From Xiphophorus maculatus (taxonomy: Eukaryota; Chordata; Actinopteri; Cyprinodontiformes; Poeciliidae), in contig NC_036453.1 of the NCBI RefSeq assembly GCF_002775205.1, positions 25,218,713 through 25,282,712 on the forward strand: a stretch of DNA of 64,000 nucleotides, given 5' to 3'. The notes under the pieces were generated by a model. The model had not been told where the DNA came from, ran no database searches, and saw only the letters and a program-made list of their open reading frames with translations. Position numbers and translations under genes: made by a program. Numbering within the stretch: position 1 is the first letter of the stretch; each line of letters opens with the position of its first letter. Shown here piece by piece: positions 1,916 to 56,580 of this stretch.

Positions 1916-2445
1916 TAAAATAGTTGTTGCTAACTCTGATTTCTAGCAACTGGAGGGAAGACACAGAGATTAGAGGTGATTATATTTTAAGGATGGGATG
2001 GGCAGCTGTCAGTGATATGAATACAGAAGGATTATCATTGCTCCCTCCGTGTAGAAATGTGCGACACACGCCATCATCACTATGTAGACAGAACTCTACA
2101 GGACAGAAATCATCTCTTATCTCCCACGATTTAACTGTTAATATGTGAAATGGCATATGTAATTATAAACTAACGGCTTTATTTATTTTTTCATTAATTT
2201 GCTCAACTTAGCAGGGTATACTTCCAAACAAACCTACGGCGTCTGCTTCACCACCTGGATAACGACTTTGTAACACCGGGGCTAAAGGTCTGTAGCTTCA
2301 ACAGTAAAGCTAATGTTAGCTAGCCGTTAACGTTAGTTAGCAGGAATGTTGTTGCTCTGACAACACTCAATTTTTCTATCTTTCTTTTTTTTTTTCTCTC
2401 TCTCTCCTTCTTCTTAATAACATTCCTCTAAACGACACCGCTTAC

Positions 2446-2577
2446 CTCAATTTTGTCGACATTCCTGGCACAGCCGACAACCCGCATGCCCTGCTGGACC
2501 AGAGCCCGGGTTACAGCCGCTCCAATCCCCACCGAGGCTCCGGTCACCAGGGCCACTCTGCCTTTCCACCGCTCCAT
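2446..2577 (-). CDS. dhrs11: Dehydrogenase/reductase SDR family member 11, coding exon 1 (partial gene)
   Basis: This exon encodes the N-terminal 44 residues of a short-chain dehydrogenase/reductase. It begins MERWKGRVALVTGASVGIG and ends with a basic NADP-binding segment around VVGCARNVDKIE. The TGASVGIG glycine motif at residues 12-19 is the cofactor-binding TGxxxGxG signature. The sequence follows mammalian DHRS11, an NADP(H)-dependent keto/17-beta-hydroxysteroid reductase, almost residue for residue. The ATG is at 2577-2575. The exon ends in phase 0 at 2446, followed by a GTAAG donor at 2445-2441. The remaining exons are not in the window. Its neighbour ggnbp2, same strand, is also its neighbour at human 17q12, which supports orthology. 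Confidence 0.9.
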
Positions 2578-2890
2578 CTCCACCAAGCGTCTTCACCGGG
2601 ACCGTTTCTGTGACGCGAGCCTACGGCTCCCCCGTGCTGCGCTTCTGCCGAGCCCCAAACCAGGCTGCCGCGGTCGAGGATGTCGCGGGGGTTACGTACG
2701 GTATTCGAAATATGGGATGCAGCCGTTCCAGAGTCCCGTGTCAGTCTGCGCAGCGTCCAGGACGACGGCGGCAATAAGAGGTCGTAAAGATCGATCCATG
2801 CGCCTCTCGGACCGAAATACGAAGAGTCCGGCTGCGTTGAAATGTTTGACTCGCTTCACCTCCCACTTTCATTTCGAGCCGCCGCACTGG
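2578..2890 (-). promoter_or_regulatory. CpG-rich 5' flank of dhrs11
   Basis: The few hundred bases upstream of the dhrs11 ATG are distinctly GC- and CpG-rich compared with the AT-rich DNA on both sides, as expected of a CpG-type promoter and 5' UTR. No TATA box is evident. The plus- and minus-strand open frames here look like GC-rich shadows. The exact start site cannot be read from sequence. Confidence 0.5.
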
Positions 2891-3339
2891 ACTGGGGAGT
2901 GTTGAGAGTAGCTTATTAGCACCACCTAGTGGAGAGGATGGAATTGTAAAAGTCAAAGGTGAAACTGTGGCATAAATACCACCGGTGGGGCTGGATGTGT
3001 TTTCAGGGGAACTCCAGAGATGCCCCCAGAAAGTCTTTAAACTTATAAAGTGGGTTGTCCCAAGGTTGTATGGGGTCCTAAGAAGAATTTCATTTGGGGC
3101 CCTAAACTTGTATACAAATTTAGTGGATCCAGGAAGGTGGGCCAGATTTATTTAGCTGAGCTTGAAAGCAATCTGATAATTGGTTATTATCTTCTAAAAT
3201 GTGTTTTGTGAACAAACTGAGTTGAAATGCAAAAAGATTAAAGTCATGGCATCAGATTATAACTCTATTAACACAACATTGTTATTAAGTTATATTAAGT
3301 TGCTTTTTATATTAACAGCATTTCATATTTTTACAATTT

Positions 3340-3456
3340 ATAGACAACTACTACTCAGTGGTGGTTGTTATTGTGTCTTGTCTCTATGCTGTAACTGCGA
3401 AGTAATTTCCCTGCTGGGATGAATAAAGTACTTCTATTCTAATCTATTCTATTCTA
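3340..3456 (+). repeat. Probable LINE 3' end with pentanucleotide tail
   Basis: A segment reading TGCTGTAACTGCGAAGTAAT, then a 'ttccctgctgggatgaataaagta' type end, runs into repeated TTCTA units (3434-3456). A 3' terminal AATAAAGTA followed by a short tandem tail is typical of fish non-LTR retrotransposon ends. No reverse transcriptase frame is attached, so it is a 5'-truncated copy. Confidence 0.5.
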
Positions 3457-3817
3457 TAAATAAAAAAAGATTACTATTTGCATTCTTATAGCATACTTGC
3501 CAATTCCTTTAAATCTTAAAATAAAAAATCAATCTTTTATTTCATGTGTACTTAATCTATTGCAGAGAAGAAGAGGCGCAACTGGGTCATTCATCCTTAA
3601 CGTCATGGCTTAGAATACTTTTTTCAAAATAATCCTCCTTGTCAAAACCAAAGTAAGAATATTTAATTAATATAAAACTTTCTGATTACTAGTTTCTCCC
3701 ACCCAAAATCCTAAAATTTCTACTAAAATGAAATGTAATTAAAAAAATAAAAGAAAAAGCCCAGTCTGCTTAAATCCAGTGCACAGTGAGGAAGCGCCAG
3801 GTACTAACATCAGTACA

Positions 3818-3861
3818 GACTGTCCAGGAATGTGAGCTACTGTTCACATTCCTGGACAGTC
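3818..3861. repeat. Perfect 18-bp inverted repeat (hairpin)
   Basis: The arms at 3818-3835 and 3844-3861 are perfect reverse complements (GACTGTCCAGGAATGTGA and its complement) around an 8-nt loop. It lies alone in intergenic DNA. It is short for a miRNA precursor, and its function is unknown. Confidence 0.8.
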
Positions 3862-5004: not shown

Positions 5005-5885
5005 GCAAGTTATTGAATTGCCTTTCCTGATTGAAATCAAGTTCTACAGAGTCCTGCTAATGACCAAAGTACTTCATTCAGGTTTGTTGAAGCAGACTCA
5101 CACCCAAAGGTTGGAAGACAAGAGCCTTCAAGTACTGGAGCTTCAGATTTCTGCAATATGGGACATCCCAACTAAGCCACTGTGTAAAATTTGAAGACTG
5201 ATCGATAAAATAAAATAGGAACTTTGACTTTTCTGTACTTGAAATGAACAACTCCAAAAGGAGTACTAACCAACAGGATATAGTGTACAGTTAAAACAAG
5301 TTTCACAAAGCTCACGTCTTAGATTAGACCAATAGGAAACAGTCAGCTGATGTGAAACCTGCTGTGTCTGAGGCAAAAAAGAGAAAAGCAGAGTAACTGG
5401 AAAGTAACCCAATCGTCCTGGGCTGGAACACCTGCTTACAGGTGCCAGAAAATGGTCGACTCCACGCCACACAGATTTGAAGCAGCCCTCAAACATCATT
5501 TATTTAAAAAAAGCTTTAATTCAGTCATTTACAGGAAAACGAAATTTTCCCCAAGTATTTTATGTTTCAGTTCATTTTAAAAATACTTTATTGATACCAA
5601 AGGGAAGCTAAATGTTGCTGTAGCTCATTATTCAAGGTTTTTCAGAGAGTCGTAGAAGCTGATTGTTGTCTTTCCAGTTGGAGTTTATACAATAAATGGG
5701 TTTGTAGAGAAATTTGGTAGAATTTTGGACACAACTGTACTTAAAAAAAAATAGAAAATCATGTTTTTGGTGATAAAAATTGGTTTGCAAAACTGCATAT
5801 AAGTTTTGTATATTGTGAAGAAAAATTCATATTTAGAGGGGAGGGGGAAAAAAACACATTTATAATCCATATTAATAAATACTCT

Positions 5886-16747: not shown

Positions 16748-17503
16748 CACGACTTCGTCTGTTAAAGACGGAAGATGAGTAAATACCTGTTTAACAGCAT
16801 TATTATTTTTGCTGGCTGTGCAGAACCTGTTCAGTGATGGCACGTTCACTCACTTCCGTGTTCGCGACCCGTGATGCATTCAAGAACACCGAGTTTTCTG
16901 GCACTTCTTGAAGTGTTAAATTTTTACTGCCGTAAAAGAAAGTTAAACGCATTTCCCTTCCTTACAATTTCATAAAATATACAAAAATTTATATTAAAAC
17001 TAAAATAATACTCTAAGCAACCTACTTGTACACAGTAAGTCCCGTGGAAGACTTTATATATGGAAAATAAAATAAAAAAAGTCACGCTGTGGAAGTTTAA
17101 AAGGCCTTCTTTGTATGCTAAAATTAAAATACAGCTCCAAACTGAACCCGTATTCAATTAGAGGGATAATATATGTATGAAGTTGTACAGCATTCAGGTT
17201 TGATTTTGCTTCAAACGAGCAGTCCCTGAATGGCTGGGAAGAGGGCGGGAATGACGTGTGGTTCGGGAGTCTGGACTGGAAGGCAGCGGGACAACCAGTA
17301 GAAGTCGTCCTTGAGTTGTTGCTGACAGCAGAGGACGTTTTATCTATCATAGAGTAGTAACTCATTTGAATCAGAAATAAGGCCCAGAGGTTTTATTTTC
17401 TCGGTAGAGTTTTAGGCCAGATACAGGGAAAGGTGTCAAATAAATGCGTTCTTCCACCGACCGGCGGAACTTTGCTGTGGGACCCAGGAATGGAGGGGCA
17501 GCG
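16748..17503. promoter_or_regulatory. Divergent pigw/myo19 promoter region
   Basis: The space between the probable pigw non-coding exon (minus; donor at 16747) and the probable first myo19 exon (plus; donor GTAAGT at 17504) is about 750 bp. It contains ETS-type sites on the pigw side: CACTTCCG at 16851 and ACGGAAGAT near 16769. The sequence between includes AT-rich DNA, so there may be two separate promoters rather than one shared core. Human PIGW and MYO19 also share a divergent promoter region. Confidence 0.5.
17490..17503 (+). other. myo19: Candidate first coding exon of myo19 (ATG plus 11 nt)
   Basis: ATG at 17490 encodes MEGQ and the first two bases of a codon (CG), then a consensus donor GTAAGT. 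This is the only ATG I see directly next to a good donor upstream of myo19. Joined straight to the exon at 18911 the frame would stop at once (CGG TGA). Either a 4-nt microexon at 18771-18774 or a downstream acceptor at 18930 restores the frame. Confidence 0.4.
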
Positions 17504-18910: not shown

Positions 18911-30718
<11,808 letters not shown>

Positions 30719-36000: not shown

Positions 36001-36419
36001 GTTATTATTATGCTGTTGTTATTACTGGTGTGTGCTAATGTGATATCTATGGAAGCCCGTTTCCGCCACTCTGTTGAAAAAATAAAATAAATTATCTCAT
36101 TATAATGAGATAGTGTCTCATTATTTTTGACTTTCCTAATTTTCTTTGGAATACCTTTTCTACATAGTGTTATTATCTTGTTTTCCTTTACTGCATCTTT
36201 CTTTGAATTGAAACTCTCAGTTTATTCCTACCTGTATTTTTCTTACATTTCACAGCAGCCGCCATTGTTTGGATGATGCAGCACGCAGAAAGGCGGCATA
36301 AGTCGCTCTGAGAAGCAGACGCAGGAATGTAAAGAGGAAATTCACAACGCAAGGTGATTGTAAGGTAGCGGAAACGACAGGAAGAAAATAACGCTCATAA
36401 ATAAAACAAAGTATAATTA
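36001..36419. other. AT-rich flank left of the repeat array
   Basis: No gene was recognised. It contains a perfect 18-bp palindrome ATCTCATTATAATGAGAT near 36094-36111. TAATTA (36414-36419) directly precedes the array, and the same hexamer follows it (52432-52437). Confidence 0.5.
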
Positions 36420-39014
36420 AAGCTGCAAGCAGCCTCGGGCGGCCCTCGCAGCAAGCGCCGCTCCGGCCTATTGGCCACCGCGGGGGTTCCAGCCACCGCA
36501 GAAGCTCTCGCGCGCTTTCCAGAGCCGCAGCCTGCTCCCCACCGCGGAAGCTCTGCCGCAGATTCCAGCATCGCCGCCCGCCAGCCGCCGCAGAAGCTGT
36601 CGCGCATTTTCCCCGCCCGTCCACCGGGCGACAGGCGTGAATGCGTTCAGCGGCGCTCCCCGACGACTGTCAAAAAATCTGGTGCAGATCGGTTGATGCG
36701 TCGAGGAGATACGGCCGATGTATCAACTTAGGGGGCGCAGTGGAGTCAAATTACATCTCAAACCCGTCGGGCTCTTTAGAGGTGAACAAAGGTCATACAT
36801 GTCCAGTTTGGCGCCAATCGGATGATCCATGTGTGAATTAGAACCAAACGTATGTATATGGCGAGGGACTGATATTCGCCATTTGGCCACGCCCACACGG
36901 TTCAGCCAGCTGCGAGCATTGACAGAGTTTATCATCCAAATCATCTTGATTAGGTCAAGAGAGCCATAAACAGAGCTTTCCAAGGAAAAAAACGGCACTT
37001 CCGGTTCCGAGGGGGCGGGGCTTAGATGACGTCATAATGTGATGACGTAGGATTGACGGGCAAGCCTCCAGGATCACTCAGGCCAAGTTTGATGCAGCTC
37101 GGTCAAAATATGTGGAAGGTAGAGGCAAACGTATACGAACGGCGTTGCCGCCATTGAAAACTGTTGGCACTTTAAAGCAAGCGAGACCAACTTCCTATCT
37201 GTCATCCAACACAGAATCACCTTGATTAGGTCAAGAGAGCCATAGATGAATGTTTCCAAGGAAAAAAATAGCACTTCCTGTTCTGAGGGGGCGGGGCTTA
37301 GATGACGTCATAATCTGATGACATAGAATTTTCAGGTATCACACCAGCATCACTCAAGCCAAGTTTAGTGCAGCTCGGTCGAAACATGTGGAATCTAGAA
37401 GCAAACGTATGGCATCGGCGTTACAGGTCACTTCGCCATGCCGCCGCACACAGCTGCTTCATCGCAGCCGGTCAGGGCTTGAATCCACAACACACCAACA
37501 TGTCTTCTGTCTCTGGACACAGTTTCATGTTGATTAGATCAAAGGGCTAAGATAGCGACCGTTCACAGTAAAACATGACACTTCCTGTTCTCAGGGGGCG
37601 TGGCCTAAGTGATGTCATCATTTCACCACAGGGTATTTTAGGACACCCGATGACGGCCAATCACTGAAAGTTTGGTGTCTCTGTGAGTTTCTGTGCAGGA
37701 TATATAAGAGTTTGGTGTTTCATGGCGAGTAGGTGAACTTTGACCCCTGGTAACCCCCCTTCAGCAAGCTCATACAGTCACCAATTTGATAACTTTAAAT
37801 CAAACATGCCTTATGATCAGACTGACCGAGTTTGAAGTCGATCAATCGAAATCCCTAGGAGGAGTTCGATCAAATACGAAGGCTGTAAACGTCAAACTCG
37901 AGGTCCAAAATGGACCTTCAATAGAAAATGGCCGACTTCCTGTTGGGTTTCGACCATGGCTCTAATAGACTTTTTTGTACGTCCTGACAAGATACACATA
38001 TGTACCAAGTTTCGTAATTCTAGGTTAAAGCATGGCTTGGGGCTGTTCATTTAAAATACTCTAGGGGGCGCTATAGATAAATTAGGCCACGCCCACCAAA
38101 TTTTGTTATGAATTCCTGTCGGTGGGTGGATAAGGATCCATCCTAGTGAGTTTGGAGCAGCTGGGCCCGAAATTGTGGAATTCAGAGCCAAACGTATGGC
38201 AACGGCGTTACAGGTCACTTCGCCACGCCGCCACGCCCACCTGCTATGTCAAAACCGGTCAGGGTTGGAATCCTCAACACACCAACATGTCTTCTGTCTC
38301 TGGACACAGTTTCATGTTGATTAGGTCAAAGGGCTAAGATAGCGACCGTTCACAGTAAAACATGACACTTCCTGTTCTCAGGGGGCGTGGCCTAAGTGAT
38401 GTCATCATTTGACCATAGGGTAGTGTAGGGCACCCGATGTCGATCAATCACTGAAAGTTTGGTCCCTCTATGTGTTTTTGTATAGGAAATATAAGAGTTT
38501 CGTGTTTCATGGCGAGTAGGTGAACTTTGACCCCTGCTAACCCCCCTTCAACATGCTCCAAAACTCACCAATTTGATAACTTTAAATCAAACATGCCTTA
38601 TGATCAGACTGACCAAGTTTGAAGTCGATCAATCGAAATCCCTAGGAGGAGTTCGATCAAATACGAAGGCTGTAAACGTCAAAATCGAGGTAAAAAATGG
38701 ACGTTCAATACAAAATGGCCGACTTTCTGTGATAGTTGGCTTATAACATTAAATGTAAGTTCTGAGTCTTTTGGTGAGCTCTACATGTGTACCAAATTTC
38801 ATGTCTCTACGATGAAGTACGTTCATACCATTGTGTCAACATAAAATTGCTAGTTGCCGCCGTTCAGCAATTTTTTTTGCGATTTTTGCGACAACCTTAA
38901 AATTCAAAATTTTTAAATTTTCTAGTTGCGACCGCCAAGTTTGGTGAGTTTTTGAATATGATAAAGCCCCCAAAAAGGCTCCTCTTTAGGGGGGCAGAAT
39001 CGTAATAATAATTA
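36420..39014 (+). repeat. Array unit 1 (2.6 kb)
   Basis: Has the full GC-rich head, two ETS/GC/CRE modules 276 bp apart (36996 and 37272) and two 780-bp sub-repeats. It ends in AATAATA without the hairpin tail. Confidence 0.85.
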
Positions 39015-40812
39015 AAGCTGCAAGCAGCCTCGGGCGGCCCTCGCAGCAAGCGCCGCTCCGGCCTATTGGCCACCGCGGGGGTTCCAGCCACCGCAGAAGG
39101 TCTCGCACAATTTCCAGAGCCGCAGCCCGCTCCCCACCGCGGAAGCTCAGCCGCAGTTTCCAGCACCGCCGCCCGCCAGCCGCCGCAGTAGCTGTCGCGC
39201 ATTTCCCCCGCCCGTCCACCGGGCGACACGCGTGAATGCGTTCGGCGGCGCTCCCCGACGACTGTCGAAAAATCTGGTGCAGATCGGTCGATGCGTCGAG
39301 GAGATACAGCCGATGTATTACCTTAGGGGGCGCAGTGGAGTCAAATTACATCTCAAACCCGTCGGGCTCTTTAGAGGTGAACAAAGGTCATACAGATCCA
39401 GTTTGGCGCCAATCGGATGATCCATGTGTGATTTAGAGCCAAACGTATGCATATGGCGAGGGACTGATATTCGCCATTTGGCCACGCCCACACGGTTCAG
39501 CCAGCAGCGAGCATTGACAGAGTTTATCATCCGAATCATCTTGATTAGGTCAAGAGAGCCATAAACGGAGCTTTCCAAGGAAAAAAACGGCACTTCCTGT
39601 TCCGAGGGGGCGGGGCTTAGATGACGTCATAATGTGATGACGTAGGATTGACGGGCAAGCCTCCAGGATCACTCAGGCCAAGTTTGATGCAGCTCGGTCA
39701 AAATATGTGGAATGTAGAGGCAAACGTATACGAACGGCGTTGCCGCCATTGGCACTTTAAAGCAAGCGAGATCAACTTCCTATCTGTCATCCAACACAGA
39801 ATCACCTTGATTAGGTCAAGAGAGCCATAGATGAAAGTTTCCAAGGAAAAAAATAGCACTTCCTGTTCTGAGGGGGCGGGGCTTAGATGACGTCATAATC
39901 TGATGACATAGAATTTTCAGGTATCACACCAGCATCACTCAAGCCAAGTTTGGTGCAGCTCGGTCGAAACATGTGGAATCTAGAAGCAAACGTATGGCAT
40001 CGGCGTTACAGGTCACTTCGCCACGCCGCCACGCCCAGCTGCTATCTCAAAGCCGGTCAGGGTTGGAATCCTCAACACACCAACATGTCTTCTGTGTCTG
40101 GACACAGTTTCATGTTGATTAGGTCAAAGGGCTAAGAGAGCGACCGCTCACAGTAAAACATGACACTTCCTGTTCTCAGGGGGCGTGGCTTAAGTGATGT
40201 CATCATTTCACCACAGGGTATTTTAGGACATCCGATGCCGATCAATCACTGAAAGTTTGGTCCCTCTATGTGTTTTTTTATAGGAAATATAAGAGTTTCG
40301 TGTTTCATGGCGAGTAGGTGAACTTTGACCCCTGCTAACCCCCCTTCAACATACTCCAAAACTCACCAATTTGATAACTTTAAATCAAACATGCCTTATG
40401 ATCAGACTGACCGAGTTTGAAGTCGATCAATCGAAATCCCTAGGAGGAGTTCGATCAAATACGAAGGCTGTAAACGTCAAAATCGAGGAAAAAAATGGAC
40501 GTTCAATACAAAATGGCCGACTTCCTGTGATAGTTGGCTTATAACATTAAATGTAAGTTCTGAGTCTTTTGGTGAGCTCTACAAGTGTACCAAATTTCAT
40601 GTCTCTACGATGAAATACGTTCATACCATTGTGTCAACAGAAAATTGCTAGTTGCCGCCGTTGAGCAATTTTTTTTGCGATTTTTGCGACAACCTTAAAA
40701 TTCAAAATTTTTAAATTTTCTAGTCGCGACCGCCAAGTTTGGTGAGTTTTTGAATATGATAAAGCCCCCAAAAAGGCGCCTCTTTGGGGGGGCAGAATCG
40801 TAATAATAATTA
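39015..40812 (+). repeat. Array unit 2 (1.8 kb)
   Basis: Full head and two ETS/GC/CRE modules (39591 and 39857, 266 bp apart) but only one 780-bp sub-repeat, which explains its shorter length. It ends in AATAATAAT with no hairpin tail. Confidence 0.85.
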
Positions 40813-43423
40813 AAGCTGCAAGCAGCCTCGGGCGGCCCTCGCAGCAAGCGCCGCTCCGGCCTATTGGCCACCGCGGGGGTTCCGGCCACCGCAGAAGCTC
40901 TCGCGCGTTTTCCAGAGCCGCAGCCCGCTCCCCACCGCGGAAGCTCCGCCGCAGTTTCCAGCACCGCCGCCCGCCAGCCGCCGCAGAAGCTGTCGCGCAT
41001 TTTCCCCGCCCGTCCACCGGGCGATACGCGTGAATGCGTTCGGCGGCGCTGCCCGACGACTGTCGAAAAATCTGGCGCAGATCGGTCGATGCGTCGAGGA
41101 GATACAACCCATGTATTAACTTAGGGGGCGCAGTGGAGCCAAATTACATTTCAAACCCGTTGGGCTCTTTAGAGGTGAACAAAGGTCATACATATCCAGT
41201 TTGGCGCCAATCGGATGATCCATGTGTGATTTAGAGCCAAACGTATGTATATGGCGAGGGACTGATATTCGCCATTTGGCCACGCCCACACGGTTCAGCC
41301 AGCAGCGAGCATTGACAGAGTTTATCATCCGAATCATCTTGATTAGGTCAAGAGAGCCATAAACAGAGCTTTCCAAGTAAAAAAATAGCACTTCCTGTTC
41401 CGAGGGGGCGGGGCCTAAGTGATGTCATCATTTGACCATTGGATATTATTGGACACTCGATTATGATCAATCACTGAACGTTTGGTGTCTCTGTGAGTTT
41501 TTGTGTTAGAATTACAAATTATTTAATTTTTTCCTCCATTACAACATTGAACTGTCATTCCCTAGGGCAATGCTGCCCTCTGGTGTCGAATTACTGAAAT
41601 AATGAAACTATTTCAGTGGGCAGCAGAGGGCAGCATTGCCCTACAAACAACGAACATGGACTGTTTATTATGTAATTACACAGAAGATCTCTCTAATTCA
41701 TTCTGAGGGGGCGGGGCTTAGATGACGTCATAATATGATGACATAGCATTGTCAGGCATCACACCAGGATGAGTCAGGCCAAGTTTGGTGCAGCTCGGTC
41801 GAAATATGTGGACTCTAGAAACAAACGTATGGCATCGGCGTTACAGGTCACTTCGCCATGCCGCCACAGCCAGCTGCTTCATCGCAGCCAGTCAGGGCTT
41901 GAATCCACAACACACCAACATGTCTTCTGTCTCTGGACACAGTTTAATATTGATTATGTCAAAGGGCTAAGATAGCGACCGTTCACAGTAAAACATGACA
42001 CTTCCTGTTCTCAGGGGGCGTGGCCTAAGTGATGTCATCATTTGACCACAGGGTATTTTTGGACACCTAATGATGATCAATAATTTAAAGTTTGGTATCT
42101 CTGTGAGTTTCTGTGCAGGATATATAAGAGTTTCGTGTTTCATGGCGAGTAGGTGAACTTTGACCCCTGGTAAGCCCCCTTCAGCAAGCTCAGACAGTCA
42201 CCAATTTGATAACTTTAAATCAGACATGCCTTATGATCAGACTGACCGAGTTTGAAGCCGATCAATCGAAATCCCTAGGAGGAGTTCGATCAAATGCAAA
42301 GGCTGTAAACGTCAAAATCGAGGTCAAATGAACTTCAATCTAAAATGGCCGACTTCCTGTTGGGTTTTGACCATGGCTCTAAGAGACTTTTTTGTACGTC
42401 CCGACAAGATACACATGTGTACCAAGTTTCGTAATTCTAGGTTTAAGCATGGCTTGGGGCTGTTCATTTAAAATACTCTAGGGGTCGCTATAGAAAAATT
42501 AGGCCACGCCCACCAAATATCGCTATGGATTCCTGTTCGGGGATGGATAAGGATCCATCCTAGTGAGTTTGGAGCAGCTCACCCCGAAACTGTGGAATTC
42601 AGAGCCAAACGAAATTCGATGGCGTTCGCAACGCCGCCACGCCCACCTGCTTCATCGCAGCCGGTCGGGGTTGGAATCCACAACACACCAACATGTCTTC
42701 TGTCCCTGGACACAGTTTCATGTTGATTAGGTCAAAGGGCTAAGATAGCGACCGTTCACAGTAAAACATTACACTTCCTGCTCTCAGGGGGCGTGGCCTA
42801 CATAAAAAAAAAATTTCACTGCAGGGTATTTTAGGACACCTGATGTCGATCAATCACTGAAAGTTTGGTCCCTCTATGTGTTTTTGTATAGGAAATATAA
42901 GAGGTTTTTGTTTCATGGCGTGTAGGTGAACTTTGACCCCTGCTAACCCCCCTTCAACATGCTCCAAAACTCACCAATTTGATAACTTTAAATCAGACAT
43001 GCCTTATGATCAGACTGACCGAGTTTGAAGCCGATCAATCGAAATCCCTAGGAGGAGTTCGATCAAATACGAAGGCTGTAAACGTCAAAATCGAGGTCCA
43101 AAATGGACCTTCAATACAAAATGGCCGACTTCCTGTGATACTTGCACTATGACATTACTTGTAAATTCTGAGCGTCTTAGTGAGCTCTACAACTGTACCG
43201 AATTTCAAGTCTCTACGATGAAGTAAGTGAATAGCAATGGGTCTTTTGAAAATTGCTAGTTGCCGCCGTTGAGCAATTTTTTTTGCGATTTTTGCGGCGA
43301 CCTTAAAATTCAAAATTTTTAAACCGCCTAGTCGCTTCCGCCAAGTTTGGTGAGTTTTTGAATATGATAAAGCCCCCAAAAAGGCGCACGAAGAGGGGGG
43401 CAGAATCGTAAGAAGAAATATTA
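40813..43423 (+). repeat. Array unit 3 (2.6 kb)
   Basis: Full head. The module at 41389 keeps its ETS and GC-box parts but the CRE is replaced by TGATGTCATCA. A hairpin insert (41563-41643) precedes a GC/CRE module at 41723. Two 780-bp sub-repeats follow. Confidence 0.85.
41563..41643. repeat. Hairpin insert 1 with divergent CTCF-like arms
   Basis: The arms TAGGGCAATGCTGCCCTCTG (41563-41582) and its exact reverse complement (41624-41643) bracket a loop containing ATTACTGAAAT. The right arm contains GCAGCAGAGGGCAGC and the left arm, on the minus strand, ACACCAGAGGGCAGC. Each matches the CTCF core at 14 of 15 positions. Confidence 0.8.
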
Positions 43424-45900
43424 AAGCTGCAAGCAGCCTCGGGCGGCCCTCGCAGCAAGCGCCGCTCCGGCCTATTGGCCACCGCGGGGGTTCCGGCCAC
43501 CGCAGGAGCTCTCGCATGGTTTAGGGCGAGCTTTCCAAGGAAAAAAACGGCACTTCCTGTTCCGAGGGGGCGGGGCTTAGATGACGTCATAATATGATGA
43601 CGTAGGATCGACGGGCCTCCCACCAGGATCACTCAGGCCAAGTTTGATGCGGCTCGGTCAAAATATGTGGAATGTAGAGGCAAACGTATACGAACGGCGT
43701 TGCCGCCATTGAAAACTCTTGGCACTTTAAAGCAAGCGAGACCAACGTCCTATCTGTCATCCAACACAGAATCACCTTGATTAGGTCAAGAGAGCCATAA
43801 ACAGAGCTTTCCAAGGAAAAAAACGGCACTTCCGGTTCCGAGGGGGCGGGGCTTAGATGACGTCATAATGTGATGACGTAGGATTGACGGGCAAGCCTCC
43901 AGGATCACTCAGGCCAAGTTTGATGCAGCTCGGTCAAAATATGTGGAAGGTAGAGGCAAACGTATACGAACGGCGTTGCCGCCATTGAAAACTGTTGGGA
44001 CTTTAAAGCAAGCGAGACCAACTTCCTATCTGTCATCCAACACAGAATCACCTTGATTAGGTCAAGAGAGCCATAGATGAATGTTTCCAAGGAAAAAAAT
44101 AGCACTTCCTGTTCTGAGGGGGCGGGGCTTAGATGACGTCATAATCTGATGACATAGAATTTTCAGGTATCACACCAGCATCACTCAAGCCAAGTTTAGT
44201 GCAGCTCGGTCGAAACATGTGGAATCTAGAAGCAAACGTATGGCATCGGCGTTACAGGTCACTTCGCCATGCCGCCGCACACAGCTGCTTCATCGCAGCC
44301 GGTCAGGGCTTGAATCCACAACACACCAACATGTCTTCTGTCTCTGCACACAGTTTCATGTTGATTAGGTCAAAGGGCTAAGATAGCGACCGTTCACAGT
44401 AAAACATGACACTTCCTGTTCTCAGGGGGCGTCGCCTAAGCGATGTCATAATTTCACCACAGGGTATTTTAGGACACCTATTGATGATCAATAACTGAAA
44501 GTTTGGTGTCTCTGTGAGTTTCTGTGCAGGATATATAAGAGTTTGGTGTTTCATGGCGAGTAGGTGAACTTTGACCCCTGGTAACCCCCCTTCAGCAAGC
44601 TCATACAGTCACCAATTTGATAACTTTAAATCAGACATGCCTTATGATCAGACTGACCGAGTTTGAAGCCGATCAACCGAAATCCCTAGGAGGAGTTCGA
44701 TCAAATGCAAAGGCTGTAAACGTCAAACTCGAGGTCCACAATGGACCTTCAATACAAAATGGCCGACTTCCTGTTGGGTTTAGAGCATGGCTCTAAGAGA
44801 CTTTTTTGTACGTCCCGACAAGATACACATATGTACCAAGTTTCGTAATTCTAGGATAAAGCATGGCTTGGGGCTGTTCATTTAAAATACTCTAGGGGTC
44901 GCTATAGAGAAATTAGGCCACGCCCACCAAATTTTGTTATGAATTCCTGTCGGTGGGTGGATAAGGATCCATCCTAGTGAGTTTGGAGCAGCTGGGCCCG
45001 AAATTGTGGAATTCAGAGCCAAACGTATGGCAACGGCGTTACAGGTCACTTCGCCACGCCGCCACGCCCACCTGCTATGTCAAAGCCGGTCGGGGTTGGA
45101 ATCCTCAACACACCAACATGTCTTCTGTCTCTGGACACAGTTTCATGTTGATGAGGTCAAAGGGCTAAGATAGCGACCGTTCACAGTAAAACATGACACT
45201 TCCTGTTCTCAGGGGGCGTGGCCTAAGTGATGTCATCATTTCACCACAGGGTATTTTAGGACACCCGATGACGATCAATCAGTGAAAGTTTGGTCCCTCT
45301 ATGTGTTTTTATATAGGAAATATAAGAGTTTCGTGTTTCATGGCGAGTAGGTGAACTTTGACCCCTGCTAACCCCCCTTCAGCATGCTCCAAAACTCACC
45401 AATTTGATAACTTTAAATCAAACATGCCTTATGATCAGACTGACCGAGTTTGAAGTCGATCAATCGAAATCCCTAGGAGGAGTTCGATCAAATACGAAGG
45501 CTGTAAACGTCAAACTCGAGGTAAAAAATGGACGTTCAATACAAAATGGCCGACTTTCTGTGATAGTTGGCTTATAACATTCAATGTAAGTTCTGAGTCT
45601 TTTGGTGAGCTCTACAAGTGTACCAAATTTCATGTCTCTACGATGAAGTACGTTCATACCATTGTGTCAACAGAAAATTGCTAGTTGCCGCCGTTCAGCA
45701 ATTTTTTTTGCGATTTTTGCGACAACCTTAAAATTCAAAATTTTTAAATTTTCTAGTCGCCACCGCCAAGTTTGGTGAGTTTTTGAATATGATAAAGCCC
45801 CCAAAAAGGCACACGAAGAGGTGGGAAGAATCGTAATAATAATAATAAACAGTACAGATACAATAGGCCTTCGCAGCGCTTTGCTGCTCGGGCCTAATTA
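43424..45900 (+). repeat. Array unit 4 (2.5 kb, head deleted)
   Basis: Only about 95 bp of the GC-rich head remain before a jump to the GAGCTTTCCAAGG segment near 43529. Three ETS/GC/CRE modules follow at an exact 276-bp spacing (43551, 43827, 44103), then two 780-bp sub-repeats and one hairpin tail. Confidence 0.85.
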
Positions 45901-48271
45901 AAGCTGCAAGCAGCCTCGAGCGGCCCTCGCAGCAAGCGCCGCTCCGGCCTATTGGCCACCGCGGGGGTTCCGGCCACCGCAGAAGCTCTCGCTCGGTTTC
46001 CAGAGCCGCAGCCCGCTCCCCACCGCGGAAGCTCCGCCGCAGTTTCCAGCACCGCCGCCCGCCAGCCGCCGCAGAAGCTGTCGCGCATTTTCCCCGCCCG
46101 TCCACCGGGCGACACGCGTGAATGCGTTCGGCGGCGGTGCCCGACGACTGTCGAAAAATCTGGCGCAGATCGGTCGATGCGTCGAGGAGATACGGCCCAT
46201 GTATTAACTTAGGGGGCGCAGTGGAGCCAAATTACATCTCAAACCCGTCGGGCTCTTTAGAGGTGAACAAAGGTCATACATATCCAGTTTGGCGCCAATC
46301 GGATGATCTATGCATGAATAAGAGCCAAACGTATGCATATGGCGAGGGACTGATATTCGCCATTTGGCCACGCCCACACGGTTCAGCCAGCAGCGAGCAT
46401 TGACAGAGTTTATCATCCGAATCATCTTGATTAGGTCAAGAGAGCCATAAACGGAGCTTTCCAAGTAAAAAAACGGCACTTCCTGTTCTGAGGGGGCGGG
46501 GCTTAGATGACGTCATAATATGATGACATAGGGTCGTCAAGGATCCCACCAGGGTCACTCGTGCAAAGTTTGGTGCAGAAGTTATCGACCGTTCACAGTA
46601 AAATACGAGACTTCCTGTTGTCAGAGGGCGTGGCCTACGTGATGTCATCATTTGACCATTGGATATTATTCTACACCCGAGGATGATCAATATCTCAAAC
46701 TTTGGTGTCTCTGTGATTTTTTGTGTTAGAATTACAAATTATTTAATTTTTTCCTCTTTAATTCAACATTGAACTGTCATTCCGTAGGGCAATGCTGCCC
46801 TCTGGTGTCGATTTACTGAAATTACTGAAATAGTTTAATTATTTCAGTAATTCGACACCAGAGGGCAGCATTGCCCCACACATGACAAAATAATCCCCTT
46901 TGTAATTGACTGTGTAACATATTACACAGTCAATCACAGGGGATCTTTGAGCCTTGCTAACCCCACTTCAACATGCTCCAAAACTCACCAATTTGATAAC
47001 TTTAAATTAAACATGCCTTATGATCAGACTGACCGAGTTTGAAGTCGATCAATCGAAATCCCTAGGAGGAGTTCGATCAAATGCGAAGGCTGTAAACGTC
47101 AAAATTGAGGTCAAATGAACTTCAATCTAAAATGGCCGACTTCCTGTTGGGTTTAGAGCATGGCTCTAAGAGACTTTTTTGTACGTCCCGACAAGATACA
47201 CATGTGTACCAAGTTTCGTAATTCTAGGTTTAAGCATGGCTTGGGGCTGTTCATTTAAAATACTCTAGGGGTCGCTATAGAAAAATTAGGCCACGCCCAC
47301 CAAATATCTCTATGGATTCCTGTTCGGGGATGGATAAGGATCCATCCTAGTGAGTTTGGAGCAGCTCACCCCAAAACTGTGGAATTCAGAGCCAAACGAA
47401 ATTCGACGGCGTTCGCAACGCCGCCACGCCCACCTGCTTCATCGCAGCCGGTCGGGGTTGGAATCCACAACACACCAACATGTCTTCTGTCTCTGGACAC
47501 AGTTTCATGTTGATTAGGTCAAAGGGCTAAGATAGCGACCGTTCACAGTAAAACATTACACTTCCTGCTCTCAGGGGGCGTGGCCTACATAAAAAAAACA
47601 TTTCACTGCAGGGTATTTTAGGACACCCGATGTCGATCAATCACTGAAAGTTTGGTCCCTCTATGTGTTTTTGTATAGGAAATATAAGAGGTTTTTGTTT
47701 CATGGCGTGTAGGTGAACTTTGACCCCTGCTAACCCCCCTTCAACATGCTCCAAAACTCACCAATTTGATAACTTTAAATCAGACATGCCTTATGATCAG
47801 ACTGACCGAGTTTGAAGCCGATCAATCGAAATCCCTAGGAGGAGTTCGATCAAATACGAAGGCTGTAAACGTCAAACTCGAGGTCCAAAATGGACCTTCA
47901 ATACAAAATGGCCGACTTCCTGTGATACTTGCACTATGACATTACTTGTAAATTCTGAGCGTCTTAGTGAGCTCTACAACTGTACCGAATTTCAAGTCTC
48001 TACGATGAAGTAAGTGAATAGCAATGGGTCTTTTGAAAATTGCTAGGTGGCGCCGTTGAGCCAATTTGTTTGCGATTTTTGCGGCGACCTTAAAATACGA
48101 AATTTTTAAACTCCCCGTATGCATCCGCCAAGTTTGGTGAGTTTTTGAATATGCTAAAGCCTCCAAAAAGGCGCCTCTTTGGGGGGGCAGAAAAATAAGA
48201 ATAATAATAATAATAATAAACAGTACAGATACAATAGGCCTTCGCAGCGCTTTGCTGCTCGGGCCTAATTA
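45901..48271 (+). repeat. Array unit 5 (2.4 kb)
   Basis: Full head, one ETS/GC/CRE module (46477), a long-armed hairpin insert (46785-46877), two 780-bp sub-repeats and a hairpin tail. Confidence 0.85.
46785..46877. repeat. Hairpin insert 2 (long-armed form)
   Basis: Near-perfect palindrome. GACACCAGAGGGCAGCATTG appears on both strands, around ATTACTGAAATAGTTTAATT. It is the long-arm version of insert 1. Confidence 0.8.
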
Positions 48272-49155
48272 AAGCTGCAAGCAGCCTCGGGCGGCCCTCG
48301 CAGCAAGCGCCGCTCCGGCCTATTGGCCACCGCGGGGGTTCCAGCCACCGCAGAAGGTCTCGCACGATTTCCAGAGCCGCAGCCAACTCCCGACCGCAGA
48401 AGCTCCGCCGCAGTTTCCAGCACCGCCGCCCGCTAGCCACCGCAGAAGCTGTCGCGCATTTTCCCCGCCCGTCCACCAGGCGACACGCGTGAATGCGTTC
48501 GGCAGCGCTCCCCGACGACTGTCAAAAAATCTGGCGCAGATCGGTCGATGCGTCGAGGAGATACAACCCATGTATTAACTTAGGGGGCGCAGTGGAGTCA
48601 AATTACATCTCAAACCCGTTGGGCTCTTTAGAGGTGAACAAAGGTCATACAGATCCAGTTTGGCGCCAATCGGATGATCTATGCCTGAATAAGAGCCAAA
48701 CGTATGCATATGGCGAGGGACTGATATTCGCCATTTGGCCACACCCACACTGTTCAGCCAGCAGCGAGCATTGACAGAGTTTATCATCTGAATCATCTTG
48801 ATTAGGTCAAGAGAGCCATAAACGGAGCTTTCCAAGTAAAAAAACGGCACTTCCTGTTCTGAGGGGGCGGGGCTTAGATGACGTCATAATATGATGACAC
48901 AGGGTCGTCAGGGATCCCACCAGGGTCACTCGTGCAAAGTTTGGTGCAGAAGCTATCGACCGTTCACAGTAAAATACAAGACTTCCTGTTGTCAGGGGGC
49001 GTGGCCTACGTGATGTCATCATTTAACCATTGGATATTATTGGACACAAGATAATGATCAATAACTGAAGGTTTGGTGTCTCTGTCAGTTTTTGTGTTAG
49101 AATTACAAATTATTTAATTTTTTCCTTTTTAATTCAACATTGAACTGTCATTCCA

Positions 49156-49236
49156 TAGGGCAATGCTGCCCTCTGGTGTCGAATTACTGAAATAATGAAA
49201 CTATTTCAGTGGGCAGCAGAGGGCAGCATTGCCCTA
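49156..49236. repeat. Hairpin insert 3
   Basis: Same sequence type as insert 1, including the GTGGGCAGCAGAGGGC right arm. It lies in the first copy of the 437-bp triplication. Confidence 0.8.
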
Positions 49237-49592
49237 CAAACAACGAACATGGACTGTTTATTATGTAATTACACAGAAGATCTCTCTAATTCATTGTGAG
49301 GGGGCGGGGCTTAGATGACGTCATAATATGATGACATAGGGTCGTCAAGGATCCCACCAGGGTCACTCGTGCAAAGTTTGGTGCAGAAGCTATCGACCGT
49401 TCACAGTAAAATACAAGACTTCCTGTTGTCAGAGGGCGTGGCCTACGTGATGTCATCATTTAACCATTGGATATTATTGGACACAAGATAATGATCAATA
49501 ACTGAAGGGTTGGTGTCTCTGTCAGTTTTTGTGTTAGAATTACAAATTATTTAATTTTTTCCTCTTTAATTCAACATTGAACTGTCATTCCG

Positions 49593-49673
49593 TAGGGCAA
49601 TGCTGCCCTCTGGTGTCGAATTACTGAAATAATGAAACTATTTCAGTGGGCAGCAGAGGGCAGCATTGCCCTA
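49593..49673. repeat. Hairpin insert 4
   Basis: Nearly identical to inserts 1 and 3, in the second copy of the 437-bp triplication. Confidence 0.8.
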
Positions 49674-50029
49674 CAAACAACGAACATGGACTGTTTATTA
49701 TGTAATTACACAGAAGATCTCTCTAATTCATTGTGAGGGGGCGGGGCTTAGATGACGTCATAATATGATGACATAGGGTCGTCAAGGATCCCACCAGGGT
49801 CACTCGTGCAAAGTTTGGTGCAGAAGCTATCGACCGTTCACAGTAAAATACAAGACTTCCTGTTGTCAGAGGGCGTGGCCTACGTGATGTCATCATTTGA
49901 CCATTGGATATTATTGGACACAAGATAATGATCAATAACTCAAACTTTGGTGTCTCTGTGAGTTTTTGTGTTAGAATTACAAATTATTTAATTTTTTCCT
50001 ATTTAATTCAACATTGAACTGTCATTCCG

Positions 50030-50123
50030 TAGGGCAATGCTGCCCTCTGGTGTCGAATTACTGAAATTACTGAAATAGTTTCATTATTTCAGTAATTCGA
50101 CACCAGAGGGCAGCATTGCCCTA
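50030..50123. repeat. Hairpin insert 5 (38-bp perfect stem)
   Basis: Arms 50030-50067 and 50086-50123 are exact reverse complements around an 18-nt loop. This is probably the least altered form. Inserts 1, 3 and 4 look like a rearranged derivative of it. Confidence 0.85.
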
Positions 50124-52203
50124 CACATGACAAAGCCCTTTGTATTACACAGTCGATCACAGGGGAACTTTGAGCCTTGCTAACCCCCCTTCCACCTGTT
50201 CAAATGTCACCATATTGATAACTTTGAATTGGACATGCCTTATGATCAGACTGACCGAGTTTGAAGCCGATCAATCGAAAACCCTAGGAGGAGTTCGATC
50301 AAATGCAAAGGCTGTAAACGTCAAACTCGAGGTCCAAAATGGACCTTCAATCCAAAATGGCCGACTTCCTGTTGGGTTTAGAGCATGGCTCCAAGAGACT
50401 TTTTTGTACGTCCTGACAAGATACACATGTGTACCAAGTTTCGTAATTCTAGGATAAAGCATGGCTTGGGGCTGATTTTTTAAAATATTCTAGGGGGAGA
50501 TGTAGAGAAATTAGGCCACGCCCACCAAATTTCGCTATGGATTCCTGTTGGCGGGTGTATAAGGATCCATCCTAGTGAGTTTGGAGCAGCTCTCCCCGAA
50601 ACTGTGGAATTCAGAGCCAAACGAAATTCGATGGCGTTCGCAACGCCGCCACGCCCACCTGCTTCATCGCAGCCGGTCGGGGTTGGAATCCACAACACAC
50701 CAACATGTCTTCTGTCTCTGGACACAGTTTCATGTTGATTAGGTCAAAGGGCTAAGATAGCGACCGTTCACAGTAAAACATGACACTTCCTGTTCTCAGG
50801 GGGCGTGGCCTACTTAAAAAAATAATTTCACCACAGGGTATTTTAGGACACCCGATGACGATCAATGACTGAACGTTTGGTCCCTCTATGTGTTTTTATA
50901 TAGGAAATATAAGAGTTTCGTGTTTCATGGCGAGTAGCTGAACTTTGACCCCTGGTAACCCCCCTTCAGCAAGCTCATACAGTCACCAATTTGATAACTT
51001 TAAATCAGACATGCCTTATGATCAGACTGACCGAGTTTGAAGCCGATCAATCGAAATCCCTAGGAGGAGTTCGATCAAATGCAAAGGCTGTAAACGTCAA
51101 ACTCGAGGTCCAAAATGGACCTTCAATACAAAATGGCCGACTTCCTGTTGGGTTTCGACCATGGCTCCAAGAGACTTTTTTGTACGTCCTGACAAGATAC
51201 ACATGTGTACCAAGTTTCGTAATTCTAAGTTAAAGCATGGCTTTGGGCTGTTCATTTAAAATACTCTAGGGGTCGCTATAGAGAAATTAGGCCACGCCCA
51301 CCAAATATCGCTATGGATTCCTGTTCGGGGATGGATAAGGATCCATCCTAGTGAGTTTGGAGCAGCTCACCCCGAAACTGTGGAATTTAGAGCCAAACGA
51401 AATTCGATGGCGTTCGCAACGCCGCCACGCCCACCTGCTTCATCGCAGCCGGTCGGGGTTGGAATCCACAACACACCAACATGTCTTCTGTCTCTGGACA
51501 CAGTTTCATGTTGATTAGGTCAAAGGGCTAAGATAGCGACTGTTCACAGTAAAACATTACACTTCCTGCTCTCAGGGGGCGTGGCCTACGTAAAAAAAAA
51601 ATTTCACTGCAGGGTATTATAGGACACCCGATGCCGATCAATCACTGAAAGTTTGGTCCCTCTATGTGTTTTTGTATAGGAAATATAAGAGGTTTTTGTT
51701 TCATGGCGTGTAGGTGAACTTTGACCCCTGGTAACCCCCCTTCAACATGCTCCAAAACTCACCAATTTGATAACTTTAAATCAGACATGCCTTATGATCA
51801 GACTGACCGAGTTTGAAGCCGATCAATCGAAATCCCTAGGAGGAGTTCGATCAAATACGAAGGCTGTAAACGTCAAAATCGAGGTAAAAAATGGACGTTC
51901 AATACAAAATGGCCGACTTTCTGTGATAGTTGCACTATGACATTACTTGTAAATTCTGAGCGTCTTAGTGAGCTCTACAACTGTACCGAATTTCAAGTCT
52001 CTACGATGAAGTAAGTGAATAGCAATGGGTCTGTTGAAAATTGCTAGTTGCTGCCGTTGAGCAATTTTTTTTGCGATTTTTGCGGCGACCTTAAAATTCA
52101 AAATTTTTCAACCGCCTAGACGCTTCCGCCAAGTTTGGTGAGTTTTTGAATATGATAAAGCCCCCAAAAAGGCGCTCAAAGAGGGGGGCAGAATAATAAA
52201 AAT

Positions 52204-52434
52204 AAGAAGAAACAGTATGAAAACAATAGGCCTTCGCAGCGCTTTGCTGCTCGGGCCTAATAAGAAACAGTACAGATACAATAGGCCTTCGCAGCGCTTT
52301 GCTGCTCGGGCCTAATAATAATAATAAGAAACAGTACAGAAACAATAGGCCTTCGCAGCGCTTTGCTGCTCGGGCCTAATAAGAAACAGTACAGATACAA
52401 TAGGCCTTCGCAGCGCTTTGCTGCTCGGGCCTAA
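52204..52434 (+). repeat. Four tandem copies of the array 3' tail
   Basis: AGAAACAGTACAGATACAAT followed by AGGCCTTCGCAGCGCTTTGC and TGCTCGGGCCTAAT occurs four times in a row. Each copy has the small stem-loop GCAGC-GCTTT-GCTGC, six bases, then CTAA followed by T. Single copies end units 4 (45866-45898) and 5 (48237-48269). The structure resembles a Helitron 3' end, but this is inference. Confidence 0.8.
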
Positions 52435-54180: not shown

Positions 54181-56580
54181 ATGGCGGCGCCCGTCTTGAG
54201 AGTGTCCACCCCTCGGTGGGAAAGAATAGCCCGGCTCCTCGTCTGCCTGCTGGGCATACTCCTGTCTCTGTATGCGTTTCACGTCGAGAGGGAAAAGGCC
54301 CGGAACCCGACTTACGAGGCCATGTGCGACGTCAGCACCTCCATCAGCTGCTCGAAAGTGTTCAGCTCCAGGTAATTTGAATTCAGCAAAGAGCGCCTTC
54401 TGTGGCGCTCAATGAAAGCTGGGCTGCTATTGTGGCAATCTGGGAAGGGTTGCGCGCTTTAAACTGTCAAATGCACTCCGCTAATGTTTGACCGCTGCCT
54501 TGGACCGCAGAGACTTGACTGTAAAACTGCCTTTTATTACTGCAGGGATGCTGAAAGATATTTGCTAGGCAGAAAACCTCCAGAAAGAAGCTCCCTGCCT
54601 GTAGTTGATAAGCACAACATTAGCTTTTTAGCTTGGCAAAGCTAACGTTGCTAACCGCTAGCAAGCAGGCTACCGTAAGTTACTTTTAGCCGGCTTTCTT
54701 TTAAGTGAATAACGACGGATAAATAATTTATTAATTGTAGTTTTCCAACATATTTAACCCAAACTTTATCTGCTTGGTGAGAGTAAAGAAGAGGTGGTTG
54801 GAGCTTATTGAAATGTTGGTATTGTTGGAAGACCCTTGACTAAAACTAGAATTTCTTGTGGTTCGGGCTTTTTAATATCGCCTGTATTTCGTTAAATAGA
54901 CGGCGCTCATTTGTTCGTTTATCATTAGTCCCCAGCTTTCAGTCTGACCCACGGGTGGAAGCGTTCACCCTGGACAACTGCAGAAACGGAGAGCGGTTTC
55001 TGAGCATTATCAGGCTCAGGTGCCAGTTGCACAGACAGCCGCAACTCAGCTGATGGTCTGCTGCTACTACTGGACTTTGTGTTGTTTCTGACTGGTTTAA
55101 GACTTTTTGACTTTAAACGTTTGGTCCATTGCCCAATTTAGGATTTCAGTCTTCAGGTCTAACATGAAGGGGTTTTTGTCCAAATTCTAAAAGAAATGCA
55201 ACTTGGAAGGGGGAAATAAAAAGCAGTTTTAGATAGAATGGTTAAGACAGTAAAATACTCACTAGTAAAATGATTTCGGCATATCATTGATGCAATGTTT
55301 CCCCCAGGAAACTTGCTAAGCCCGGTGTTTGGGTGCCAGTGCAGTCATTCACCCAGCAGTCTGTTGTGTTTTTGAGTTAAAAAATGTTTAATGTTGGCAG
55401 GAAATTTTAAAATATCACTTGATAATTATGTGTTATTGAAAGATTGAAGATTAATACCTGAACACCAACTATAAAGTCTTTAAAAAAATGCAAACATTTT
55501 AAAACTACTTAAATAAGTAAGTAATGCTTTAGCCTGGTGGGGACACAAGTAAAGCCTGGTGGCCCGCCAGGCTTATAATACACTGAGGGAAACCCGTTAT
55601 TTTAGCGATATGGCTTGGTTTCAGACTTAGCATGTCACTGTAATTTTCGTCACTAATTAATGATTTCAGTTTCTGAAGTGACCTATATGCACTGATTGAT
55701 TTACGAGTTTAAGTTTATGTGCCAAATGTGTATGTTTGTTTGTTTTTTTTGTTTTTTTGGTCAACCAAGACAACATTTTCACATACCGTACACCAGAGGT
55801 GTCAAACTCCAGTCCTGGAGGGCCGCTGTCCTGCAACCTTTAGATGTGCCTCTGCTGCACCACACCTGAATAGAATAATTAGGTCATTAGCAAGACTCTG
55901 GAGAACTGATCTACACAATAACGAGGCAATTAAGCCATTTGATTCCGGTGTTTTGTACCTATGGCACATCTAAAAACTGCAGGACAGTGGACCTTGAGGA
56001 CTGGAGTTTGACACCCCTGCCGTACACCAAGTATCACTGTTTAATTCAGGATAATGCAATGCAGATTTGCAGGGAAACAATCCCCCACTTAAAAGCCAGA
56101 TGTAGTCTCTGCCTTCTCAGTTGTTTTGCAGAGCAAATGACAAAACCCAACTTGGCAGAATAAAAGGCCACAATGTCTCTGGAATGCAGACTGTTGAAGA
56201 CTTGTTGCATATTTGTTTGATGAGTCGAGTTAGTCCTGCCCTCTTCAAACCTGAATAAATTACCAGCTGTAGGTATTTCCTCGTCAGCCAAACATTTATT
56301 AAAAACTTTCTCAGTGTAAATACGTAGTTCCCATGGCATGGCTACCTCAAATTAATGGATATAAAAAATATTGATACCTAGACCTGCCTATAATATATAC
56401 AAGCATTTGCTGTACTTTCCAGGTGCTTATGGGACGGAATATTATTACTTTTTTGTCATTTTACACTTTATAGAATAGCAGTGGAAGTCTGATGAGCTGA
56501 CATTGGCCTGTGAAATCGTTGCCTTGTCTACTATCCTGCAGGCAGCTGGTTGACAGACATGACATTCATTGCTTGTAGTT

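Follow-up and report, generated by a model that had tools for sequence, protein, structure and literature searches.

What kind of sequence packs a fixed combination of putative transcription factor sites into one repeat array of fish DNA, and whether that combination does any work, are the questions raised by a locus of Xiphophorus maculatus. The window (the whole 64,000-nucleotide stretch that was analyzed, NC_036453.1 positions 25218713-25282712 in a 704-Mb genome assembly) holds an array of repeats in which 39-bp modules combine three motifs, which we take to be an ETS site, a GC box (Sp/KLF) and a cyclic AMP response element (CRE; CREB/ATF). An earlier note on this DNA had proposed that the array might be made of a mobile promoter or enhancer module. 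In this study, the array was found to consist very probably of six head-to-tail units of a non-autonomous rolling-circle element that is Helentron-associated and HINE-like. The first half of the proposal was borne out, as mobility of the module-bearing element is supported by 1,680 core copies, by fixed unit ends and by eight of nine transposon copies, whereas a promoter or enhancer role, suggested by the motifs themselves, is unproven.

Units, ends and target site

Comparison of repeats and ends divided the array as follows:

36417..52434, + strand, whole array, six head-to-tail units
36417..39011, + strand, unit 1 (2595 bp)
39012..40809, + strand, unit 2 (1798 bp)
40810..43420, + strand, unit 3 (2611 bp)
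43421..45897, + strand, unit 4 (2477 bp), in which a 276-bp type A monomer is repeated 2.6 times in tandem at 43528-44241
45898..48268, + strand, unit 5 (2371 bp)
48269..52434, + strand, unit 6, with a 437-bp tandem sub-array (48860-50083) and tandem 3' tails
36417..36473, + strand, 5' end of a unit, TTAAAGCTGCAAGCAGC plus the subterminal inverted repeat
52403..52434, + strand, 3' end, stem-loop GGCCTTCGCAGCGCTTTGCTGCTCGGGCC, then TAA, the next base being T

Every one of the six units opens with TTAAAGCTGCAAGCAGC, and much of each unit is made up of diverged monomers of ~280 bp, within which the ETS/GC-box/CRE module is fixed. In the unit tested, 27 of the 34 columns of the subterminal inverted repeat matched the reverse complement of the 3' end, and none of 1000 shuffles was as good. 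A stem-loop with a two-part stem (-16.8 kcal/mol) lies near the unit end. The 5' junctions examined, which came from different places, read A|TTAAAGC in nine of nine cases, and among the genome-wide 5' ends (ATTAAAGCTGCAAGCAGC), with unit-to-unit junctions counted in, A preceded 1,066 and another base preceded three. The 3' junctions examined, including that of the window itself, read CTAA|T in seven of seven cases. At a further 72 genome 3' ends, a count outside which the T-followed ends lie, the next base was A in 57, C in 15 and G in none; some of these A- and C-followed ends may be tail-to-tail junctions. Inspection by eye of the five cases for which both flanks had been read (the window, L015, L023, L011 and L012) revealed no target duplication. 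Compared with canonical Helitrons, the units share the CTRR 3' end and the A|T target without duplication, apart from the 72 A/C exceptions, and they begin with TTAAAGC in place of the 5' TC end.

Several further observations concern the body of the units. The 3' tail (~55 bp including the hairpin) is tandemly repeated four times in the window (52203-52434) and eight times in L018 (1851-2262), and 3' ends seem to have been added repeatedly. The solitary unit of L015 is broken by ~0.5 kb of other sequence at ~5345-5875, possibly another insertion. Palindromic inserts composed of GGGCAATGCTGCCCTCTGGTGTCGA and its inverse were observed in monomers at window positions ~41560-41650, 46760-46906, 49150-49240, 49590-49680 and 50020-50130. 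These inserts recall an inverted pair of CTCF-like cores, and a strict pattern scan gave zero matches. The 24 Rfam matches were all under the gathering score, 21 of them on the palindromic inserts and three immediately to the right of the array. The window gave no tRNA gene, and no Pfam family was found in the six scanned frames among the longer stop-to-stop frames of the array.

Genome-wide dispersal and a Rep/helicase partner

A genome-wide count of the module had been suggested as a check of the earlier proposal. Run on the exact 25-bp GC-box and CRE core (GGGGGCGGGGCTTAGATGACGTCAT), the count gave 788 + 892 = 1,680 copies and 0 for the reversed control, so the module is dispersed, and the 16-kb array of the window is one array among many. 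The perfect CRE, TGACGTCA, occurs at 17,412 genome sites (counted on a single strand because it is a palindrome), and the exact cores make up 9.6% of them. Its reversed control occurs at 24,189 sites, and thus TGACGTCA is without overall enrichment in the genome. By our own estimate (~1,069 unit starts x roughly 2.7 kb), the family fills ~0.4% of the genome; since it nevertheless holds 9.6% of the perfect CREs, these are ~24 times denser in the family. Neighboring 5' ends a few kb apart had the same orientation among the first 100 listed of the ATTAAAGCTGCAAGCAGC matches. The plasmid collection gave no match to the element, the IMG/VR scans returned two contigs, L001 being without similarity to the array, and a literature sequence-string search with the 5' end of the unit returned nothing related.

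The search with the Helitron_like_N profile yielded 24 matches in the genome and none in any of 14 control genomes. By score, 14 matches lay at 128-138 bits and nine at 110-113 bits, and one was a 33-bit fragment. All nine 110-113-bit copies were taken as the partner group, and modules were located with model R1. Downstream of the gene and on the same strand, module repeats were present in eight of the nine copies (C14, C6, C17, C18, C11, C67, C51 and C25); because the family fills so small a part of the genome, chance neighbors of transposon genes would be rare. Two unique markers between gene and repeats were found in four and five of the nine stretches, respectively. The frame of C14, the one copy tested for domains, contained OTU, DUF6570, Helitron_like_N (5.8e-30), PIF1 (3.5e-22) and Exo_endo_phos, the last at residues 2384-2564 with 26 bits against a cut-off of 24.5. 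The C14 repeats finish with the hairpin-CTAA of the unit type, and another unit follows directly. Taken together, the repeats downstream of eight of nine transposon copies and the shared hairpin-CTAA end in C14 indicate that the units are non-autonomous and Helentron/HINE-like.

This assignment agrees in many respects with the published account of Helentrons, HINEs and DINE-1, in which the partner has Rep/helicase and endonuclease, with an OTU-like domain in some, and the non-autonomous HINE copies have subterminal inverted repeats, a 3' stem-loop, a microsatellite, sometimes tandem repeats, and no target site modification (PMC4067079). The C14 frame, with OTU, Rep, a PIF1-type helicase and an endonuclease in the same protein, is close to the Helentron make-up so described. 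The units have sequence in common with this partner, together with subterminal inverted repeats and a 3' stem-loop. However, the inverted repeat here covers 34 columns with seven differences, whereas 12-15 bp are given for HINEs in the same account, and the monomers here carry the ETS/GC-box/CRE module.

Other points weigh against a Helentron origin of the units. Insertion at TT is reported for Helentrons in that account, whereas the site here is A|T (also A|A and A|C). The 5' ends of units and partner may differ, as the units start with TTAAAGC and the sequence that C6 has in common with the other transposon copies starts from A|TCTGATTGG. In the ninth copy, C21, no module was found in a 2.2-kb stretch; moreover, C6 was noticed through a nearby module, and the count free of that choice is seven of eight. 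The hairpin end was observed in a single autonomous copy, C14. Upstream of C14 (~10 kb) and of C18, C11 and C6 (2.7 kb each), neither the module nor the TTAAAGC end with TTAAAGCTGCAAGCAGC was found. A left flank is common to three of these four upstream stretches.

The idea that the module serves as promoter of the transposase gene was not supported, given the module-free upstream stretches of these four copies. Upstream of the C14 transposon (L042 ~2400-3860) lies an apparent 3' end of a non-LTR (long terminal repeat) retrotransposon with a GAAGAAG tail, named by eye, which is partly common to C18 and C11. The 14 copies of the 128-138-bit group, found on C2, C4, C9, C19 and others (L031-L038), include many frames of ~2,300 aa, and a scan of eight 3.6-kb loci of this group with model R1, the copy ends lying outside that scan, detected no module. 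The Helitron_like_N match at C15:4758936-4759535 is surrounded by an open frame of 17,154 aa, far longer than those of its relatives, possibly owing to a run of N.

The module and the source of its invariance

All nine full modules listed in the earlier note showed CACTTCC[T/G]G, GGGGGCGGGG and TGACGTCA in this order at the positions given there, with CACTTCCGG as the ETS variant at 36996 and 43827 and CACTTCCTG at the other seven. The claim of 12 perfect CREs likewise held, all 12 lying inside the array and none in the remaining 47,981 bp of the window, and the three pairs of GC box and CRE that lack the ETS site ended where it had placed them (41730, 49323 and 49760). The modules of the window are:

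36996..37034, + strand, 39-bp module, CACTTCCGG
37272..37310, + strand, 39-bp module
39591..39629, + strand, 39-bp module
39857..39895, + strand, 39-bp module
43551..43589, + strand, 39-bp module
43827..43865, + strand, 39-bp module, CACTTCCGG
44103..44141, + strand, 39-bp module
46477..46515, + strand, 39-bp module
48848..48886, + strand, 39-bp module
41707..41730, + strand, GC box and CRE without ETS; homology to other copies begins at the GC box
49300..49323, + strand, GC box and CRE without ETS, in the 437-bp sub-array; homology begins at the GC box
49737..49760, + strand, GC box and CRE without ETS, in the 437-bp sub-array; homology begins at the GC box
41389..41427, + strand, type A/B recombinant module, ETS with GGGGGCGGGG and TGATGTCA
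37579..37617, + strand, one of the array's 14 type B modules (CACTTCCTG, GGGGGCGTGG, TGATGTCA)

In 100 dinucleotide shuffles of the window, TGACGTCA occurred 0.63 times on average and four times at most; since the modules are homologous copies of one ancestral monomer, with about one independent origin, this test, which assumes independence, overstates the surprise. A pattern scan of the array found 27 homologous modules, 13 of type A and 14 of type B, of which the earlier list was the intact part. Among the type A modules (GGGGGCGGGG), 12 carried TGACGTCA and one, at 41404, carried TGATGTCA. The type B modules (GGGGGCGTGG and variants) carried TGATGTCA in nine cases and CGATGTCA in one, and an A run replaced the CRE region in the remaining four.

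Because the module is a fixed part of the ~280-bp monomers, each transposition or tandem amplification would carry module copies with it. Head-to-tail growth may have occurred through rolling-circle read-through or head-to-tail circles, and later unequal exchange may have reshaped the arrays and may also be the source of the 276-bp and 437-bp sub-arrays. The module, whether carried as cargo or serving the element itself, may be kept at the element level, through element transcription, chromatin opening or replication, or may simply be young and homogenized; accidental effects of some copies on host genes are conceivable. Of these readings, element-level retention, or youth with concerted evolution, appears most likely, and host regulation, judged from the sequence, is possible but unproven.

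The alternatives differ in how much of this evidence they can accommodate. If the array were only a local satellite or segmental duplication in which no transposon had taken part, its head-to-tail order and the sub-arrays would be explained, but this alternative is scarcely credible, being contradicted already by the dispersed copies, with their fixed ends and unrelated flanks, the solitary copy in L015 included, and by the same repeats downstream of Rep/helicase genes. Far more plausible, although still short of an even chance, is that the module is invariant as a side effect of concerted evolution, with recent monomers being spread by unequal exchange and conversion and exchange junctions falling frequently in the GC-box region. 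Homology starts at the GC box at 41707, 49300 and 49737, the module at 41404 likewise switches from type A to type B at the GC box, and the array has undergone two local amplifications, the 276-bp and 437-bp sub-arrays, all of which agree with such exchange. In favor of a special status of the module, a 30-mer containing GC box and CRE did not vary among 12 of 12 type A copies in the window, with a longest-run permutation P of 0.00135 for the nine full copies, 0 of 20,000 for all 12 and 0.00015-0.00255 when three or four representatives were used. In all six pairs compared, this 30-bp core was alike at 30 of 30 positions, and 63 to 75 of the other 82 positions were alike. However, motif-free 30-mers of the element were equally invariant in diverged pairs (ACATGCCTTATGATCAGACTGACCGAGTTT being an example of a motif-free block), which again fits concerted evolution and weakens the invariant 30-mer alone as proof of selection. 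Less easily explained by exchange is the shortness of the core, just 30 bp within flanks that differ between subtypes, whereas conversion tracts are usually longer, and the fact that the module is common to type A and intact type B monomers, whose remaining sequence is 51% alike.

A further explanation is that the module is a working site to which CREB/ATF, ETS (GABPA-like) and Sp/KLF proteins would bind in vivo, so that the arrays would serve both the element and neighbors such as nupr1-like as promoters or enhancers; this must be considered doubtful, although several comparisons point toward it. Between nine type A and six intact type B copies from the window, the best 39-bp window in 128 columns coincided exactly with the module (82.5%, against 51% outside it), whereas against the eight other type B copies the module reached 73.9% and was surpassed by a window 10 columns upstream (75.3%). 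Model R1 located 200 modules in 20 stretches of the genome, the best 150 of which were aligned and 50 dropped. The 70 type A rows held TGACGTCA in 69, an intact GC box in 69, CACTTCCTG in 36 and CACTTCCGG in 33, with five of 39 sites variable in the module versus 48 of 85 elsewhere, but these row counts, like the variant counts and the type B rows that follow, are biased because the stretches were chosen for the exact core, and the type A rule itself draws on positions next to the CRE. In the 30-bp core of type A, rare variants were of borderline scarcity (9/2,099 versus 55/6,533, P 0.057). Among the 80 type B rows, CACTTCCTG was kept in 76 and TGATGTCA was present in 49, but the CRE was lost to an A run in 23, and the contrast in variable sites (19/39 in the module versus 54/85 elsewhere) was not significant (P 0.17). 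A cleaner sample was given by a flanks-only pattern with 548 matches, exact flanks favoring young copies; among the 100 listed, a count by eye gave a perfect CRE in 99 and a perfect GC box in 99. The CpG observed/expected ratio, 0.88 in the array versus 0.64 and 0.53 on its two sides, also favors a working site, whereas the equally invariant motif-free 30-mers and the module-free upstream stretches of four transposon copies argue against it.

Related systems, consequences and neighboring genes

Cg_HINE elements of the Pacific oyster are non-autonomous Helentrons by which satellite-like tandem repeats are carried and dispersed (PMC7492417), and by this description they resemble the tandem-repeat-bearing elements reported here; the host is another one, and no transcription factor site is named for the oyster elements in the part of that account considered. 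Helraiser, an experimentally studied Helitron, prefers an AT target, with TT, AC and AA as the main alternatives, and arrays can arise through its head-to-tail circles and 3' bypass (PMC4778049). It shares with the present units the AT target and a hairpin close to the 3' end (11 nt in Helraiser versus 10 nt to the inner stem here), whereas it starts with TC and ends with CTAG, the units start with TT and end with CTAA, and the partner here adds OTU and endonuclease. The closest precedent is that of the Caenorhabditis Helitrons, which hold 61.4% of the heat-shock elements in dense clusters, many of them HSF-1-bound, with heat induction measured (PMC6927752). In both cases rolling-circle elements supply sites of one stress pathway, 61.4% of the heat-shock elements there and 9.6% of the perfect CREs here; binding was measured in the nematodes, whereas the three-part vertebrate module is known from sequence alone. 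On this model, a vertebrate Helentron with a built-in, selectively kept ETS/Sp/CRE module would have delivered about one tenth of the perfect CREs of its host, largely in dense arrays, and would have wired neighbors to cyclic AMP/stress signaling, as the nematode heat-shock Helitrons did for heat shock; we consider this unlikely. Among the papers listed in literature searches, none joined Helitrons or Helentrons with CREB or ETS sites in fish, which is no proof of absence.

Through these findings, a fish repeat that had been anonymous is linked to a rolling-circle transposon. At least 1,680 of the 17,412 perfect CREs of the genome come from this one family, each of them fixed beside a GC box and usually also an ETS site, which opens the way to asking directly, in a vertebrate, whether signaling is rewired by rolling-circle elements. 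Furthermore, CREB, GABPA or ATAC peaks in such a genome require multi-mapping-aware analysis. The genes beside the array of the window are nupr1-like on the left, whose start codon lies 538 bp from the array (Phospho_p8, 2.7e-24), and vkorc1l1-like on the right, whose first exon begins at 54181, ~1.75 kb off the array (VKOR, 3.1e-9).

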